64,000 bases of DNA from Martelella sp. HB161492. Its GTDB lineage: Bacteria; Pseudomonadota; Alphaproteobacteria; Rhizobiales; Rhizobiaceae. Numbering within the stretch: the stretch's first letter is position 1; each line of letters opens with the position of its first letter. Where the stretch lies: contig NZ_JAATVV010000017.1 of NCBI RefSeq assembly GCF_013184775.1, forward strand, positions 1 to 64,000, given 5' to 3'. A program made the position numbers and the translations under genes. Shown here in pieces: positions 1,238 through 10,815 of the stretch. The notes under the pieces are model-generated. The model did not search any database and was not told the DNA's origin. It saw only the letters and a list, made by a program, of their open reading frames with translations.

Positions 1238-2401
1238 TCAAAGCCCGAAGACGAATGCGGGATCTTCACCGGTTGTCGGCGCCGTTGCGCTGACAACCCG
1301 GTCCCGGCCGATACGCTTGGCCTCATAAAGGGCCTGGTCGGCGAGCCGGTAGAGCGAATCAAACCCGGCCTTGGTTTCAAGATCGCCGACACCGATCGAG
1401 CAGGAAAGCCTGAGATCCGCGTCAATGCCAGCAACCGTACTTGCGGAAAATTGCCGGCGGATCCGTTCAGCCATTGCAACAGCCGCACGCGCATCAAGTC
1501 CGGGCGCGATGATTGCGAATTCGTCACCGCCAAAGCGACCGACGATATCCATCGACCGCGACTGGCTGGACAGGATCCGGCCGAACTGCCTCAGCACGGC
1601 ATCGCCAGCCGGATGCCCGCGCGTATCGTTGATCACCTTGAAATCATCGAGATCGAGCAGGATCAGCGCGGTCATTGGCGAATCCGGGGCTGCGAAAAAA
1701 CGGTGCATGGCCCGCTCGAATCCGGCGCGGTTCAAAACGCCGGTCAGGTGGTCGCGATCGCGCTGACTGTTCAGGCTGTCGAGTGATTCGACAAAATGCG
1801 ATGCCAGCACTTCAAGGGCCAGCACCATGGCGAACAGCAGGATATAGACCTGCATGAACTGCCAGAAGATGGATTTCGGATCGGCAATATCCGGAGTCAC
1901 CAACACGCCGAATGTCCGGACCGAATGCATGACGCCAAGCGCCACCAGCGTCCAGAAGATCAGCTTGTCATGAATGCTGTCATCACGCCTGATCCAGAAA
2001 CGGAACACGGTCAGCGTCATGAAGGCAAAAAGGCCGACATTGATGGCCATGGTTCGCGACGTGATGGTGCCGAACAGGTAGAAGCCATAATAGAGCGTAC
2101 ACAATGCGATGAAGGATGACAGATTCAGCAATATGCCGAATGTTTTGCCGCGCCGTTGCAGCAGCGCTTCGCCGAGCAGGATCTGCGTTGCGATAAACAT
2201 GAAATTGGCGGCCGGCAGAACCACATCCTTGGACACGTAGTCTCGCAGCAGCATCGTGCAGAAGGCGCAGGCAAGCATGATATAGGCGGCTGACAGAATG
2301 AGAAGGTAGGTTCGCCGCGCGCCGGTAAACCAAGCAACAACAAAACTGCCGGCGAGGATAATCAACCCGCCCGGCACCATCAGAGATTGCATGTCTACCA
2401 C
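1238..2401 (-). CDS. Membrane-bound diguanylate cyclase (GGDEF domain)
   Basis: This 387-residue protein has about six hydrophobic segments in residues 1-200 and a C-terminal GGDEF domain from about residue 215. The active-site motif GGDEF is intact at residues 291-295. RSMD at 282-285, five residues upstream, is a canonical RxxD inhibitory site, so an active, product-inhibited cyclase making cyclic di-GMP from two GTP is expected. No EAL domain is present. The start is GTG with GGAGG about ten bases upstream; an ATG three codons later is an alternative. The signal sensed by the membrane part is unknown. Confidence 0.9.
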   Translation of the reverse strand: MVDMQSLMVPGGLIILAGSFVVAWFTGARRTYLLILSAAYIMLACAFCTMLLRDYVSKDVVLPAANFMFIATQILLGEALLQRRGKTFGILLNLSSFIALCTLYYGFYLFGTITSRTMAINVGLFAFMTLTVFRFWIRRDDSIHDKLIFWTLVALGVMHSVRTFGVLVTPDIADPKSIFWQFMQVYILLFAMVLALEVLASHFVESLDSLNSQRDRDHLTGVLNRAGFERAMHRFFAAPDSPMTALILLDLDDFKVINDTRGHPAGDAVLRQFGRILSSQSRSMDIVGRFGGDEFAIIAPGLDARAAVAMAERIRRQFSASTVAGIDADLRLSCSIGVGDLETKAGFDSLYRLADQALYEAKRIGRDRVVSATAPTTGEDPAFVFGL

Positions 2402-2798
2402 TTGCCGCGCGCCTCCGACACCGGCGCTCCCCTATTTTGCCCCGCCCACCATCGGACACCCGATCATACGCTGCTGAGGTGAAACATCAGTTTACGTTAA
2501 GCCCATATAGATCGTAGCAAATCTGGCCGTGAGGGGGAAATGAAAAGATCGTCACTTTGACCGTCTTCCGAGCATGGCTGAAACGGATAGCGGCAATCGC
2601 ACCTGCATATTCAGCATGGCAGGCTGACTAACGCATCAATCTTTACAGGACAGCTGTTTCACTCAATAGCGGCTTCATGTCAATCCGCTCTGCACTGCTT
2701 TTCTGGACCTCGTCACCCGCATCCGTTTCCACGTCAATCCGCGACGCTTCAGGCCGGCCGACAATTCGCGTTGATCCCAGACCAATGATGCATCGCCA
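2402..2798. other. Intergenic region with tRNA remnant
   Basis: A gap of about 400 bases between the diguanylate cyclase start and the end of the glycosylation operon. Apart from the tRNA-Gly-like fragment listed separately I see no gene here. Open frames in the part next to the GtrA gene are out-of-frame shadows. Confidence 0.6.
2579..2626 (-). pseudogene. Degenerate tRNA-Gly 3' fragment, possible attachment-site remnant
   Basis: These 48 bases align without gaps to 6291-6338 of the intact tRNA-Gly gene, in the same orientation, with 39 identical positions. The match covers the anticodon arm through the 3' end and stops abruptly at the 5' side of the anticodon stem. The T-stem pairing is broken, so it cannot be a working tRNA. 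Its extent is typical of the tRNA segment duplicated when an element integrates into a tRNA 3' end. Confidence 0.65.
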
Positions 2799-3185
2799 TC
2801 AGTTCCGAAAGACATAGTGTCTGGACAGCGCAAAGTTGAACACCATGCCGCTAATCGTCCCGAGAGCGATCGCGATGACAGGATAGGCCTGCACCAGTTC
2901 GGGAAGCATGAACGACATCCCGACCGAGACGGCATAATTGACGCCGCCACCGATCAAATTGGCCGAAAGATATTTCAGCCATTGCCGAACCAGTGTCCCA
3001 TGACGACTTTTGAACGTCCATATCCGGTTCATGATCCATGCGCTGCTTGCCGCAACGACATAGCTCCCTGCTCGGGCTGCGAAGAACGGAACCCCCAGCC
3101 GCAACAGGACAGACAGGCTGAGCCAATCGATCACAAATGCGATCGCACCGACGACGGCGAACCGGATAAACACGAAATCAGGCAC
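2799..3185 (-). CDS. GtrA-family membrane protein
   Basis: A protein of about 128 residues with four hydrophobic segments and the family features FIRFAVVGAIAFVIDW near the start, MNRIWTF in the middle and FNFALSRHYVF at the end. GtrA-like proteins are thought to flip or hand over undecaprenyl-phosphate-linked sugars across the inner membrane. I chose GTG at 3185, which overlaps the stop of the upstream glycosyltransferase gene by eight bases; the frame can also start at a TTG at 3218. It is the last gene of a three-gene operon. Confidence 0.85.
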   Translation of the reverse strand: MPDFVFIRFAVVGAIAFVIDWLSLSVLLRLGVPFFAARAGSYVVAASSAWIMNRIWTFKSRHGTLVRQWLKYLSANLIGGGVNYAVSVGMSFMLPELVQAYPVIAIALGTISGMVFNFALSRHYVFRN

Positions 3186-4125
3186 CCCGAATGAGAGAAT
3201 GAATAGAGGCGATCGCAAGATAGCGCATCCGCTTGGCCTCGCGCCGACTGAGCGTCACCGTATCCAGGATCAAACCACAGAAAAGTGAAAGCGCCCCGAG
3301 AATTCCGCCTCCGGTCGCCAACATGACGGTCGGGAACCGCGGAACCAGGCCTGTCTGGAAATAGGTCAGAAACACCGGCACCATAACCACCAGAGAAAAC
3401 AGGAAAAGAAATAGGGCGATCAGGGAGAAGAACTGGAACGGACGCTCGTCCCGCACCAGCAGCATGATCGTCCTGAGAATCCTGAAGCCGTCGTGGAAGG
3501 TGCGAAGCTTGCTTGCGGACCCCTCCGGGCGTTCCTTGTACGGCGTGCCAACCTCCGCTGTCGGCATCCGCAGTTCCAAAGCATGCACCGTCAGCTCCGT
3601 CTCGATTTCAAATCCCATCGCAAGCGCAGGAAAGCTTTTCACAAATCGCCGCGAGAAGACGCGGTAACCAGAGAGCATGTCGCTGAACTCGTTGCCGAAG
3701 ATCATGGACACCAGACCAGTAAGCAATCTGTTTCCGAACCGATGTCCGGGTCTGTATGCTTCAACTTTCCCGCCGTCGCGACGTCCGTTGACCATGTCCA
3801 GGCCCTCGGAACACAGCACCTCGACAAGCTTCGGCGCCGATGCCGCATCATAGGTATCGTCACCATCAACAAGGACATAAACATCCGCTTCAATATCAGC
3901 GAACATACGCCTCATCACGTTGCCCTTACCCTGCCGCTTCTCCAGCCGCACGACAGCACCAGCTTGCGCTGCACATTCGCATGTCGCGTCGGTCGAATTG
4001 TTGTCATAGACATAGACCGTGGCACCGGGAAGCGCGGCCCTGAAATCGGAAACAACCTTCGCGATTGTAACTTCTTCGTTATAGCACGGCACCAGGACCG
4101 CTACAGATAGGTTCTCTATTTCCAT
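3178..4125 (-). CDS. GT2 polyprenyl-phosphate glycosyltransferase (GtrB/DPM1-like)
   Basis: A 315-residue family 2 glycosyltransferase: nucleotide-binding start AVLVPCYNEE at 9-18, DNNSTD at 41-46 and a DGDD metal-binding motif at 87-90. Two hydrophobic segments near the C-terminus anchor it to the membrane. Relatives of this architecture load a sugar from a nucleotide donor onto undecaprenyl phosphate. Coupling to a GtrA-type gene that overlaps it and a large membrane glycosyltransferase upstream matches the layout of O-antigen glucosylation operons. The sugar and acceptor cannot be read from the sequence. Confidence 0.88.
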   Translation of the reverse strand: MEIENLSVAVLVPCYNEEVTIAKVVSDFRAALPGATVYVYDNNSTDATCECAAQAGAVVRLEKRQGKGNVMRRMFADIEADVYVLVDGDDTYDAASAPKLVEVLCSEGLDMVNGRRDGGKVEAYRPGHRFGNRLLTGLVSMIFGNEFSDMLSGYRVFSRRFVKSFPALAMGFEIETELTVHALELRMPTAEVGTPYKERPEGSASKLRTFHDGFRILRTIMLLVRDERPFQFFSLIALFLFLFSLVVMVPVFLTYFQTGLVPRFPTVMLATGGGILGALSLFCGLILDTVTLSRREAKRMRYLAIASIHSLIRGA

Positions 4126-4168
4126 GGATCTCTCGAATCTCGCAAAATTCTATTTGCCGCGAATATGA

Positions 4169-5776
4169 TCAGTTCGCAGAATGAACCGCCGACTTGATCA
4201 ACTTACAAGATTTCAGTCTCTCGACGTTGTTTTCAATATAGAAACAGCCATCGTCCGCCAGTTTCAGACCAAAGGTGGCGAGAGCGGCGCTGGAGGATTT
4301 TTCGTCGAAAGATTCAGGCGACAAGGTCATAATCGGACCATCGTGCGCGGCAACGATATCTCGGATGCGCTTGCCCAAACCGTCGTCTGCAGAGATTGGC
4401 AGATTGCCTTCAAACCGGACAAAGCGGTCCGTTGCTGGCAAATAGGGAATGACATAGGCCATCGGTTCGCCTGAGAGCATCACAAAAAGCTGATCTCCTG
4501 CCTGCAACTCCGGTGGAAATGCCAGCTCGAACCAGCTGTCCGAGAATTTTGCCTTACCCCAATTGGCAGGAACCGTCGTGACGAGCAGCAACGCGACACT
4601 CGCGAAAGACATGATCAGCAATCTGCGCACATCCTGAGTGATCACCGCCAGCAGGCCGATCGTGCAGAGGGGAATGAGCTGCTCCAGTGCCACGGCATAT
4701 CGGCCAATGCCAAACATCAGCCCCCACAAGAGCAAACTTGTAATAACAAAAATCAAGAGCAGGAGCAGCTTCTTCGAGTCAACAAGACTGGCCTGAGAGA
4801 CCGACCTGCGACCACGGAGCAAAAGAGAGTCCAGAAAAACAAGAACAAAAATAGAAAGGAAAATAGCGAAAACTAAATATCGCAAATCAACCATACCGAC
4901 TTCCGTCGTCGGATGCGCCCCCGCTGCAATCTCAATAAACTTCGAAAAAAAGTCATCCACGCCGTGAAAGAGGAAACGAGTATCCTTCAAGGCGACTGCC
5001 GGATAGAGATCCGATTTGAAGATGTCATTGTACAGCGGCATCACCGGGTTATCGAACAGCCTGTACATGTACACCATCCATATCGCACCGAACGGAATGA
5101 AGGTGACCAGGAAGCCGCCTGCCGCTGCGAGGGCCTGCCTATGGAACCGCCTCGGATTCAGCACAAGTACAGCAAGAGCCAAGCCCGGGATATAGATCAA
5201 CGCCGTCAGCTTCAAAGCGACTGCCAGCCCCAGACACAACCCCGACCAAAAGAATTGCCGGACAGCGGAATCATCCCGAATAGCGAAGTAAACGGCGGCC
5301 AGAAGAAAGGCAGCGACCCAATTGTCATTCATCGTGACTCCGATAAGTGACAAAAATACAGGCCCGGCACCTGCGGCAAGAGCGCAAAGAATAGAGAGAA
5401 ATTGAACTGCCCAGCGCCGACCGCTTAATGACTGCCGGAATAATTCGGAGGCAATGAGATAGACGAGCAGAATGTTGACCGCAGAACAGGCCGCCATGAT
5501 AACCGAGCCGATCACCGGCCTGGTGAACATCACGGCGAAATACGGCAGCAATACACCGAAAGGATTGGTCCAGGTCTGACGCTGACCGGGCGCCACATCA
5601 TAAACCAAGCGGTCATGCAAGAATGCGTAGACCGAATATACGTGATAATTGCGCAGGTCCCAGTTGATATCCAAACCGACATGCAACGCATAGTAAACAC
5701 AAAAAAGCACCGCACTTCCCAAAACGACAAGCGGCATGATGAGAGACTCGAAAGAGCCCCGAAATTTACTCAGCAT
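4169..5776 (-). CDS. Large membrane glycosyltransferase-like protein (GT-C type)
   Basis: This 535-residue protein has roughly ten hydrophobic segments and a shorter soluble C-terminal part from about residue 405. The first external loop contains INWDLRNYHVY, with acidic and aromatic residues placed as in GT-C enzymes that use polyprenyl-phosphate sugars. As first gene of the operon it is the best candidate for the enzyme that transfers the sugar to its final acceptor, equivalent to the variable third gene of gtr operons. Exact family and substrate are uncertain. Its sequence looks more AT-rich than neighbouring housekeeping genes. Confidence 0.65.
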   Translation of the reverse strand: MLSKFRGSFESLIMPLVVLGSAVLFCVYYALHVGLDINWDLRNYHVYSVYAFLHDRLVYDVAPGQRQTWTNPFGVLLPYFAVMFTRPVIGSVIMAACSAVNILLVYLIASELFRQSLSGRRWAVQFLSILCALAAGAGPVFLSLIGVTMNDNWVAAFLLAAVYFAIRDDSAVRQFFWSGLCLGLAVALKLTALIYIPGLALAVLVLNPRRFHRQALAAAGGFLVTFIPFGAIWMVYMYRLFDNPVMPLYNDIFKSDLYPAVALKDTRFLFHGVDDFFSKFIEIAAGAHPTTEVGMVDLRYLVFAIFLSIFVLVFLDSLLLRGRRSVSQASLVDSKKLLLLLIFVITSLLLWGLMFGIGRYAVALEQLIPLCTIGLLAVITQDVRRLLIMSFASVALLLVTTVPANWGKAKFSDSWFELAFPPELQAGDQLFVMLSGEPMAYVIPYLPATDRFVRFEGNLPISADDGLGKRIRDIVAAHDGPIMTLSPESFDEKSSSAALATFGLKLADDGCFYIENNVERLKSCKLIKSAVHSAN

Positions 5777-6290
5777 TGAACGGCCCCAATCACTCTGATT
5801 AGCGAAAAGACTCTTACCTGGCCGTCCTGACGGCTCTTTGAGGTAACGCCCTTAGCAACAATCGCCAACCTTTTCTAGGGTGAGGTCACGGTGATCGGAA
5901 CCGGAAAATGCCGGCTTCATTGAGGCCGTTGGCAGACAAGGGACCGGCGAAGATCGGTCCTGGCGCGTCCAAAGGGATGCACGGCGCTCTAGACGAAGAT
6001 TTTCGCCAAGATCCACAAGGCAGCCGGCGTGCGGGGGAAGATTTGGGTGATGGATTAGCGTGCCGGAGCCGTCTCTGAAACGCTTTCGGCAACAGGATCG
6101 ATTGACCAGCCACAGCGTCCTGCGACACATTCAAGTGCCAGACCGAGCGCCCCCTGGTCGCATGGCGATGGTGTGGACGAATCGCGCAAGGTGGCAAAAG
6201 CCCGCGCGGGCAATCCATCCGCAACAGAAGACCTGTGAAACAAGGTGAAACGCGTGAACCGGAAAGACCGCGACGTCATGGAAAAAAGAC
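5777..6290. other. Intergenic region between tRNA-Gly and the glycosylation operon
   Basis: About 510 bases that should contain the operon promoter and the end of the tRNA transcript. It holds one partial mosaic repeat (listed separately). The open frames here have no homology I recognise and no convincing ribosome-binding sites. A CTAG at 5875-5878 and another at 5989-5992 may mark the two ends of a degraded repeat copy. Confidence 0.5.
5954..5992 (-). repeat. Mosaic palindromic repeat, partial copy D
   Basis: On the minus strand it reads CTAGAGCGCCGTGCATCC, then TTTGGACGCGCCAGGA, a close match to the hairpin module of copies A, B and C. The match is lost afterwards. It ends in CTAG but does not touch the end of any gene. 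Confidence 0.7.
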
Positions 6291-6364
6291 TGGAGCGGGT
6301 AGCGGGAATCGAACCCGCGTATTCAGCTTGGAAGGCTGCTGCTCTACCATTGAGCTATACCCGC
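6291..6364 (-). tRNA. tRNA-Gly (anticodon TCC)
   Basis: A 74-base gene whose minus strand starts GCGGGTATAGCTCAATGG and ends with an encoded CCA. The anticodon loop CTTCCAA gives TCC. Acceptor, D, anticodon and T arms (GCGGGTTCGATTCCCGC) all pair. It follows tRNA-Tyr and is probably co-transcribed with it. The same Tyr-Gly(TCC) order before tuf occurs in E. coli. Confidence 0.97.
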
Positions 6365-6385
6365 GGATCAGTCAGTTGCTGGTGG

Positions 6386-6470
6386 TGGTGGAGGAGGTTG
6401 GATTCGAACCAACGTAGACTAAGTCAACGGATTTACAGTCCGTCCGTTTTAACCACTCACGCACTCCTCC
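6386..6470 (-). tRNA. tRNA-Tyr (anticodon GTA)
   Basis: An 85-base class II tRNA with an extra arm; the minus strand starts GGAGGAGTGCGTGAGTGG, contains ACTGTAAATC at the anticodon (GTA) and ends CTCCTCCACCA with the CCA encoded. It is 21 bases upstream of tRNA-Gly in the same direction. Confidence 0.97.
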
Positions 6471-6575
6471 AGTACCAGCCTGGATGGCGCTTGCCATCTC
6501 TCGACGCTTGCTTGGCCTTGACCTTCAGGCGCTTGCCTTGGGGCGACTGCTTCGGTTGCGTCGATCTGCGCCGCG

Positions 6576-9750: not shown

Positions 9751-9794
9751 CCTGACCGGGGCTCCGGCCCTCAAGCGTAAGCCACAGACAACTG

Positions 9795-9833
9795 ATATTG
9801 TCCGCCGTCAAATGGCTTGACGGCGGACAATAT
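9795..9833 (+). terminator. Perfect 17-bp hairpin after gpgS
   Basis: ATATTGTCCGCCGTCAA pairs perfectly with TTGACGGCGGACAATAT around a five-base loop, followed by ATTTTATTG. The short T tract fits a rho-independent terminator 44 bases after the gpgS stop, although the stem is unusually long and symmetric. Confidence 0.7.
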
Positions 9834-10347
9834 ATTTTATTGACTGACGTAAATTTTGACGATTTCAGCAATTACGCCCTTGTATCTGGCGCCTTTCACA
9901 TGGCTTCAAAAATATATAACGCCACCGCACTGGAATTCTTCTCTTCAAGCCAATCCCCAAAAATTCACCATAGACTTACATCACAAGCTATGAATATTTC
10001 ATTATAATCTAGACAATGTAAGTAAATATTCTTAATTTATATATGAATAAATTTCATACTACTTATTTTTCTGTAGATTCTCATTCAGAAACCTGATAGA
10101 TCCAGTAAAACTACAAAACTGGGGAGAGTGTCTTGAAGCAGAATCTGGGTTAATAAGAAGTATCGATATTTTCTTTTTTCAAAATTGCGGGTCAGGCAGG
10201 CCACGAACAATGAATAAGGCTCTGCAACCTGCAACAATCTGATTAAACTTATGATACGGACCGTGAGAAACGGTAACCGCGCTCAGGACGAGTTGCGAAC
10301 GATTTGTCGCGCCATCAGGTCCATATCGAGCATAGGTAGGCAAATAC
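9834..10347. other. AT-rich intergenic region upstream of the mucR-like gene
   Basis: About 510 bases, visibly much richer in A and T than the rest of the window, especially from 9900 to 10180. No gene, RNA or clear -35/-10 pair was recognised. Ros/MucR proteins favour AT-rich DNA with T-A steps and many regulate themselves, so an extended autoregulatory control region is plausible. Acquired DNA is the alternative. Confidence 0.45.
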
Positions 10348-10815
10348 ATGTATTCCAAAATCCAAGATCCAATGCCGGAGAACATTTCATCGCTCACCGC
10401 CAACATCGTGACAGCCTATATCAGTAGAAATGACGTGGCGGCCGATGAGCTGCCGGCCCTCATTGCCAGCGTTCAACGTGCACTCGGGCAACCAGAGCAA
10501 GGTTCCAGGGACTCCAGCGCCGATGCATGGCCGCAATCCAATAGCGGCCAGACGCCTGCAGTGCCTGTCGCACAGTCGCTTGAAACCGACTACATCATAT
10601 GTCTGGAAGATGGCCGCAGATTTCGCTCTCTGAAGCGGCATCTGAAATCACAGTATAACATGACCCCCGATGAATATCGGATCAAATGGGGACTGCCGCC
10701 CGAATATCCGATGGTGGCACCGTCTTACGCTGCCCGGCGCTCGCACATCGCCAAGGATATCGGCCTTGGCGTCACGGTGTCCAAGCGCACGCCGCGGCAG
10801 GAAGACAAATCCTGA
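10348..10815 (+). CDS. MucR/Ros-family transcriptional regulator
   Basis: A 155-residue protein: N-terminal region likely to oligomerise (1-45), a variable linker (46-78) and the Ros/MucR DNA-binding domain, with CLEDGRRFRSLKRHL at 85-99 followed by YNMTPDEYRIKWGLPPEYPM. These proteins silence or activate exopolysaccharide, motility and symbiosis or virulence genes at AT-rich targets. The zinc site is atypical: Cys85 and His98 are present, but position 88 is Asp and positions 102-103 are Gln-Tyr where a His is usual. AGGTAGG precedes the ATG; a second ATG eight codons later is possible. Confidence 0.88.
   Translation: MYSKIQDPMPENISSLTANIVTAYISRNDVAADELPALIASVQRALGQPEQGSRDSSADAWPQSNSGQTPAVPVAQSLETDYIICLEDGRRFRSLKRHLKSQYNMTPDEYRIKWGLPPEYPMVAPSYAARRSHIAKDIGLGVTVSKRTPRQEDKS

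Follow-up and report, generated by a model that had tools for sequence, protein, structure and literature searches.

Remnant of a probable prophage-like insertion enclosing a glycosylation operon at tRNA-Gly(TCC) of Martelella sp. HB161492

The window analysed here, a 64,000-nucleotide stretch of the Martelella sp. HB161492 genome, contains a 3.7-kb insertion with exact boundaries at a tRNA-Gly(TCC) gene, closed by a repeat derived from that tRNA and harbouring an integrase pseudogene whose clade is associated with tRNA-Gly. The arrangement very probably records the entry of a prophage-like element, equipped with a tyrosine recombinase of this tRNA-Gly-specific clade, into tRNA-Gly(TCC) and its subsequent decay to a scar. 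A first-pass annotation of the same DNA had proposed a remnant genomic island left by integrase-mediated insertion, and an empty site in a close relative, the repeat and an integrase fragment all support that proposal.

Results

A direct repeat of the tRNA-Gly 3' half

The intact tRNA-Gly(TCC) gene occupies 6291-6364 on the minus strand (ARAGORN; Rfam places it at 6294-6364), with tRNA-Tyr beside it at 6386-6470 on the same strand (ARAGORN). Toward the other end, at 2579-2626 and again on the minus strand, lies a decayed copy of tRNA-Gly positions 27-74, which has the same orientation as the gene and is identical to 6291-6338 at 39 of 48 bases (compared in the plus orientation). The first-pass annotation had described this 48-base copy, running from the anticodon arm to the 3' end, and our recomputation returned the same figure. 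Outside tRNA-Gly itself no stretch of the window matches as well, the runner-up reaching 28/48, and 200 windows simulated under a first-order Markov model peaked at 31/48; the possibility, raised together with the original proposal, that the similarity is no better than chance is thereby ruled out. Compared with the 3' 48 bases of other tRNAs, the same query gave 27/48 for tRNA-Tyr and 19/48 for tRNA-Arg, and the copy therefore derives from tRNA-Gly. The segment thus runs from an intact tRNA-Gly to a direct repeat of that tRNA's 3' end.

An empty site in the nearest relative

The nearest relative compared, G007 (RlmB 95% and GGDEF protein 89% identical), carries the corresponding empty site, in which tRNA-Tyr is followed by tRNA-Gly and, 176 bp on, by the GGDEF gene. 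In the window this gene, encoding a diguanylate cyclase (1238-2401, minus strand; PF00990, 8.5e-36), is the chromosomal gene that flanks the distal end. Window positions 2373-2626 align unbroken to G007, from the start of the GGDEF gene into the 3' half of tRNA-Gly, and the alignment ends at 2626, so that the break falls at the repeat, which we designate the distal att site. At the tRNA end, 6288-6480 is identical to G007 at 193 of 193 bases. Because collinearity with G007 ends at 2626 and identity covers 6288-6480, the insert measures 3,712 bp from repeat to repeat. The concern that close relatives might all carry the same genes here does not apply, G007 being an exact empty site.

Within the tRNA-Gly to tuf interval, which the first-pass annotation had singled out for comparison across related strains, the distance from tRNA-Gly to the GGDEF match is 176-376 bp in nine of 12 same-genus relatives. 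Two others, G011 and G012, carry large elements of 48.9 and 43.6 kb, each closing with 47 bp that repeat the 3' end of the tRNA (positions 28-74, 98%). Past the distal copy, GGDEF and tuf resume in G012, and neither was matched in the 3.9 kb examined in G011. The remaining relative, G002 (contig C1, 2655000-2668600, L042), has a 9.1-kb insert between tRNA-Gly and GGDEF which, judging from its ORFs, looks like an ABC-transporter operon and which contains no tRNA copy at 31/48 or better apart from the gene itself. This case counts against the tRNA insertion view, as it shows DNA entering the same interval without any repeat.

In seven loci of other genera without a known element, tuf follows tRNA-Gly at 134-783 bp in three (G015, G021, G034) and at 3.1 kb in G022; no tuf match was found within the stretch examined in G016, G019 and G029, nor a GGDEF match in any of the seven. 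Since the GGDEF gene is also there in the genus relatives, not all of the roughly 6 kb separating tRNA-Gly from tuf is new. GGDEF between tRNA-Gly and tuf is ancestral in the genus, and the new part of the interval is limited to 3.7 kb. The expectation that tRNA-Tyr-tRNA-Gly leads straight into tuf in relatives was thus borne out for some other genera and not for this one, and the insertion is smaller than the 6 kb first assigned to it.

An integrase remnant beside the tRNA

The integrase, which the first-pass annotation considered gone, survives beside the tRNA as a pseudogene fragment: a decayed tyrosine-recombinase C-terminus at 5993-6208 on the plus strand, convergent with the tRNA. By tblastn it aligns to the G011 integrase at 50% identity over 72 aa (E 7e-18 in the first 7 kb, 7e-17 in the whole window), with one in-frame stop and a tryptophan at a site where relatives carry a tyrosine, presumably the catalytic one. 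Similarity to the G012 integrase fragment extends to 6256, 34 bp from the tRNA end, and the gap between integrase and tRNA in G011 is 37 bp. The integrase ORFs of G011 and G014 also adjoin the tRNA and are convergent with it; that of G012 is truncated and stands beside ORFs identified as istA/istB-like by reading their translations. A scan of 5700-6480 detected neither promoters nor terminators.

A short dispersed repeat at about 5962-5995 abuts the start of the integrase remnant and has a 31-bp, 87% match in G002. Its 24-bp core is present in four copies in the window (at 5967, 13563, 38301 and 52730, with at most 4 mismatches) and in none, with up to 5 mismatches allowed, in a control consisting only of five mononucleotide shuffles. 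The repeat, which we take to resemble the intergenic repeats of rhizobia, may mark a deletion junction. The 24-bp core occurs also in the G002 and G009 loci.

A tRNA-Gly-associated integrase clade

The G011 integrase has matches in at least 27 of 394 family genomes, a minimum since no more than four candidates were scored per genome; the G012 integrase fragment is absent from this survey. Within the same 394 genomes, and again as a lower bound, all 13 near-full-length integrases that share 47% identity or more with the G011 enzyme adjoin tRNA-Gly or part of one, namely a complete gene in 10 (eight TCC, two CCC), a copy of positions 28-74 in two and a split match in one. An integrase fragment of G014 (C20:23024-23368) is not among the 13. 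None of 17 more distant integrases has tRNA-Gly within about 1.5 kb on each side, and some of those loci have tRNA-Arg, -Thr or -Gln within that distance. The window remnant scores 45.8-78.6 bits against the 13 Gly-site integrases and 27.7-45.4 against the 17 distant ones, groups that nearly touch (45.8 vs 45.4). In a tree built from 26 of 30 integrase loci (L099-L102 left out), the G012 fragment and the remnant, the remnant groups with the 14 Gly-site rows in a single clade (100/100) and, within it, with G011 and G012 in an eight-row subclade (100/99), placed there on a long branch with 17% of its columns filled. The distal copies of related elements start at tRNA positions 25-28 (29 at a contig edge), and the copy in the window starts at 27.

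Tracing the clade through the family revealed tRNA-Gly elements (in G011, G012, G014, G085, G228, G321 and others) with the same attachment segment and integrase clade as the scar. They differ from it in their size of 17-75 kb, in their mostly open integrases, G012's excepted, and in having no GtrA in the 11 that could be delimited. Among 11 further genomes with a clade integrase, a partial copy lies on the same contig as the intact tRNA, 41-75 kb away, in seven. G221 has its integrase beside a copy and complete genes on other contigs, the pieces in G392 are spread over different contigs, no partial copy was seen in G244, and G165 has two copies 55 kb apart, the intact gene being absent there. 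Ten proteins scanned from the G011 element gave matches to terminase, portal, head protease, tape measure, tail fibre, endolysin, NinB and integrase, with one of the ten matching none, and these phage-gene matches identify the element as a prophage. Relatives of its integrase are encoded on two viral contigs (65% and 47%); the phage collection yielded four integrase matches, all below 60%, two of them covering at least 80% at 31-33% identity.

Several of these loci are unusual in their own right. In G014 two successive partial tRNA-Gly copies lie downstream of the intact gene (contig C20, 21218-40479, L053), 17 and 19 kb from it, the inner one adjoining a second integrase fragment, at C20:23024-23368, and the arrangement looks like successive insertions at one site. 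In the three-contig assembly of G165 both element ends, at contig C1 ~992595 (L104) and 1047428 (L112, L206), are copies of positions 28-74; no 5' half of tRNA-Gly was detected at the element, the adjoining RlmB matches only partly, and the best tRNA-Tyr match genome-wide has E 0.24. The G165 element carries a tRNA-Trp (ARAGORN, L205). Its arrangement is likely an assembly error, or it may be a case akin to tRNA-dependent lysogeny. Partial tRNA-Gly 3' copies were also seen 26-29 kb from another tRNA-Gly in G008 (C8:155480) and G012 (C1:150435; L034, L035), and this second locus may be an integration site as well.

The glycosylation operon

No phage structural or packaging genes were recognised in the 3.7-kb scar, and the open genes of the insert are three glycosylation genes, co-oriented on the minus strand. 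The gene at 4169-5776 encodes a 535-aa multi-membrane-helix glycosyltransferase that is hinted to be GT-C like by Pfam GT87/PMT_2 matches below cut-off and by a structural model of poor confidence (pLDDT 55) whose best PDB matches are GT-C enzymes (E 4e-4, TM 0.31), among them ALG12, DPY19, AftD and ArnT, a hint only at that pLDDT. Next to one another stand two families with matches above cut-off: a 315-aa GtrB-like polyprenyl-phosphate glycosyltransferase of GT2 (3178-4125; PF00535, 3.9e-16), with dolichol-phosphate mannose synthase as its relative in the PDB (E 2e-13), and a 139-aa GtrA-like membrane protein (2799-3218; PF04138, 5.8e-23) whose gene overlaps the end of gtrB. If the operon acts as a gtr cluster does, GtrB would charge polyprenyl phosphate with a sugar, GtrA would flip it and GT-C would transfer the sugar to a surface glycan.

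The AT-richness attributed to the whole operon by the first-pass annotation held for one gene. Against 0.601 +/- 0.023 for 49 other window ORFs, the GT-C gene has the lowest GC content of the set, 0.519 (-3.6 SD), and is thus foreign in composition, whereas GtrB at 0.560 (-1.8 SD) is within the ordinary range and unexceptional by itself; GtrA, at 139 aa, fell below the cut-off of the comparison set (ORFs of at least 150 aa picked by a GC3 rule) and went uncounted.

The distribution of the cassette is patchy. Its order GT-C, GtrB, GtrA is found again in G054; upstream of GtrB in G012 and G002 lies a highly divergent ORF of 560 or 553 aa (22% and 25%). Four of 13 genus genomes, counting the window's own, have GtrB at 76% identity or more, each time at a different place. 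In G007 the cassette, extended by a second GT-C gene, sits at a non-tRNA place; the gene that precedes it has an orthologue in the window's genome, where no cassette follows. The GT-C proteins of the window and G007 are 83% identical, with dS 0.54, and three flanking genes have dS slightly above this (0.62-0.85); for GtrB dS is saturated and for GtrA it is 1.84. These differing dS values show that GT-C and GtrB/GtrA have separate histories, and the cassette is a mosaic.

A GT-C at 83% or more was found in two of 394 family genomes, the window's and G007, the next best being 33% (at most three candidates scored per genome, hence a lower bound). GtrB, by comparison, is common in bacterial genomes, many of the best 80 kept from at least 572 candidate stretches being Azospirillum at 68-73%, so that its presence alone is no mark of a phage. 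Neither the phage collection nor the viral contigs yielded a close phage counterpart of the gtr cassette: eight phage records showed GtrB similarity, three of them covering at least 80% at 48-52% identity, and one viral contig held a GtrB relative at 57%. As for the related tRNA-Gly elements, a GtrA-family match was found in none of the 11 delimited ones, nor on the integrase contig of three whose extent is not established, and the 11 distal ends, each covered by a locus of 13-20 kb and its ORFs of 90 aa or more, yielded no homologue of GtrA, GtrB or GT-C. The operon is therefore not the usual cargo of these elements.

Discussion

The sequence of events that would best account for the locus begins with the tyrosine recombinase of a prophage-like element recombining with roughly the final 48 bp of the tRNA-Gly(TCC) gene. 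The incoming copy of these 3' bases, which we infer to be 6291-6338, would have joined the host 5' half and rebuilt a functional tRNA, and the host's original 3' half, in all likelihood 2579-2626, would have ended up on the opposite side of the insert; no longer needed there and free of selection, it would have drifted to 39/48. Later deletions would have taken almost the whole element, broken the integrase and fixed the remainder in place, leaving the C-terminal integrase scrap, the GT-C/GtrB/GtrA operon and the decayed att site. To judge from its relatives, the original element was probably phage-sized. Because the integrase is broken and the ends are mismatched, excision by the element's own enzyme is unlikely. 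Insertion after the split from G007 fits the data; the clock offered by the decayed copy, changed at 9 of 48 positions (JC 0.22, bootstrap 0.09-0.40; flanking dS 0.62-0.85), is too wide to date the event. Two genes elsewhere have 4-fold JC of 0.18-0.19, which indicates that rates vary between regions.

The first-pass annotation regarded the operon as cargo of the island. The insertion itself stands, and that the GT-C/GtrB/GtrA operon came with the element is a somewhat better than even proposition. Such an arrival is plausible because the operon adjoins the distal att site, as gtr does in P22-like maps. A real if lesser chance attaches to the alternative that element and operon are unrelated, a prophage having decayed at tRNA-Gly and a gtr cassette having entered the leftover DNA later by repeat recombination or an insertion sequence. 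The absence of GtrA from all 11 delimited elements favours later entry, as do the cassettes of G007, G012 and G002, which sit elsewhere (G012's among ORFs read as transposases), the shuffling of cassettes implied by a GT-C dS of 0.54 against saturated GtrB and 1.84 for GtrA, and the dispersed repeat at the integrase break. On the other hand, the cassette occupies the distal att end, opposite the integrase, and this is the position that gtr has in converting phages such as P22. There is also no insertion-sequence gene among the insert's open genes; its short non-coding stretches were compared only with relatives' loci and a plasmid collection.

Two further readings are disfavoured. A tandem tRNA-Gly duplication that decayed, with genes inserted between the copies and no integrase involved, would explain why the repeat derives from tRNA-Gly and shares its orientation, but it is very improbable: the copy is confined to positions 27-74, as it is in relatives that have the integrase, no recognisable 5' tRNA sequence was seen beyond 2626 in the alignments, an integrase remnant is present, and G007 is collinear into a single tRNA. 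That the genes are ancestral and were lost from relatives, the repeat being a chance match, agrees with the open frames of the operon and the 83% related GT-C gene in G007 and is nonetheless most improbable of all, given the short interval in nine of 12 genus relatives and a repeat far above chance that lies exactly at the break.

Returning to entry of a prophage-like element at tRNA-Gly, the scar may tentatively be read, with a little less confidence than we would give an even chance, as a degraded serotype-converting prophage in which selection kept only the conversion operon by the distal att site and deletion removed everything else of a phage-sized element. If so, it would be a rhizobial counterpart of P22/Sf-type conversion, would place a conversion operon in a family whose examined relatives showed no gtr genes, and would imply that the GT-C specificity gene is swapped between cassettes independently of gtrB/gtrA.

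Parts of the published record offer points of comparison. As described for Sinorhizobium meliloti, prophages and genomic islands placed by tyrosine integrases sit at tRNA 3' ends, with hot spots that include tRNA-Thr, -Asn and -Lys (PMC11476347). The scar resembles them in its intact tRNA at one end, repeat at the other, integrase at the tRNA end and empty site, and differs in measuring only 3.7 kb, in its pseudogene integrase and in its tRNA-Gly site (PMC11476347). Mesorhizobium ICEs are reported to adjoin a tRNA-Gly (PMC8627217). The operon recalls phage gtrABC clusters and remnants, such as those of Salmonella phage epsilon34 and Shigella gtrIC, in that GtrA and GtrB, joined here by a putative counterpart of the variable multi-membrane-helix glycosyltransferase, have an integrase and a tRNA close by; gtrIC lies near an integrase and tRNA-Pro (PMC4924310). 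Its order differs, being GT-C, GtrB, GtrA here, whereas in the phage clusters gtrC lies downstream of gtrA and gtrB. The separate histories of GT-C and GtrB/GtrA resemble the variation of the specificity gene in phage gtr clusters (PMC2629481).

The scar is well supported as a clear example of a well-known process and an ordinary event. It represents a clean end-stage of tRNA-targeted integration whose earlier stages can be seen in relatives of the same family, in a decay series that runs from the G011 prophage with its open integrase, through the truncated integrase of G012 and the two att copies and second integrase fragment of G014, to the 3.7-kb scar here. It is also an indication of an integrase clade, spread across the family, that is associated with tRNA-Gly, and it illustrates how an operon for surface glycans could stay behind in a chromosome.

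Elsewhere in the window, an AT-rich intergenic stretch of about 600 bp (9751-10347) precedes a 155-aa ORF at 10348-10815, the product of which we take to resemble a MucR/Ros regulator.
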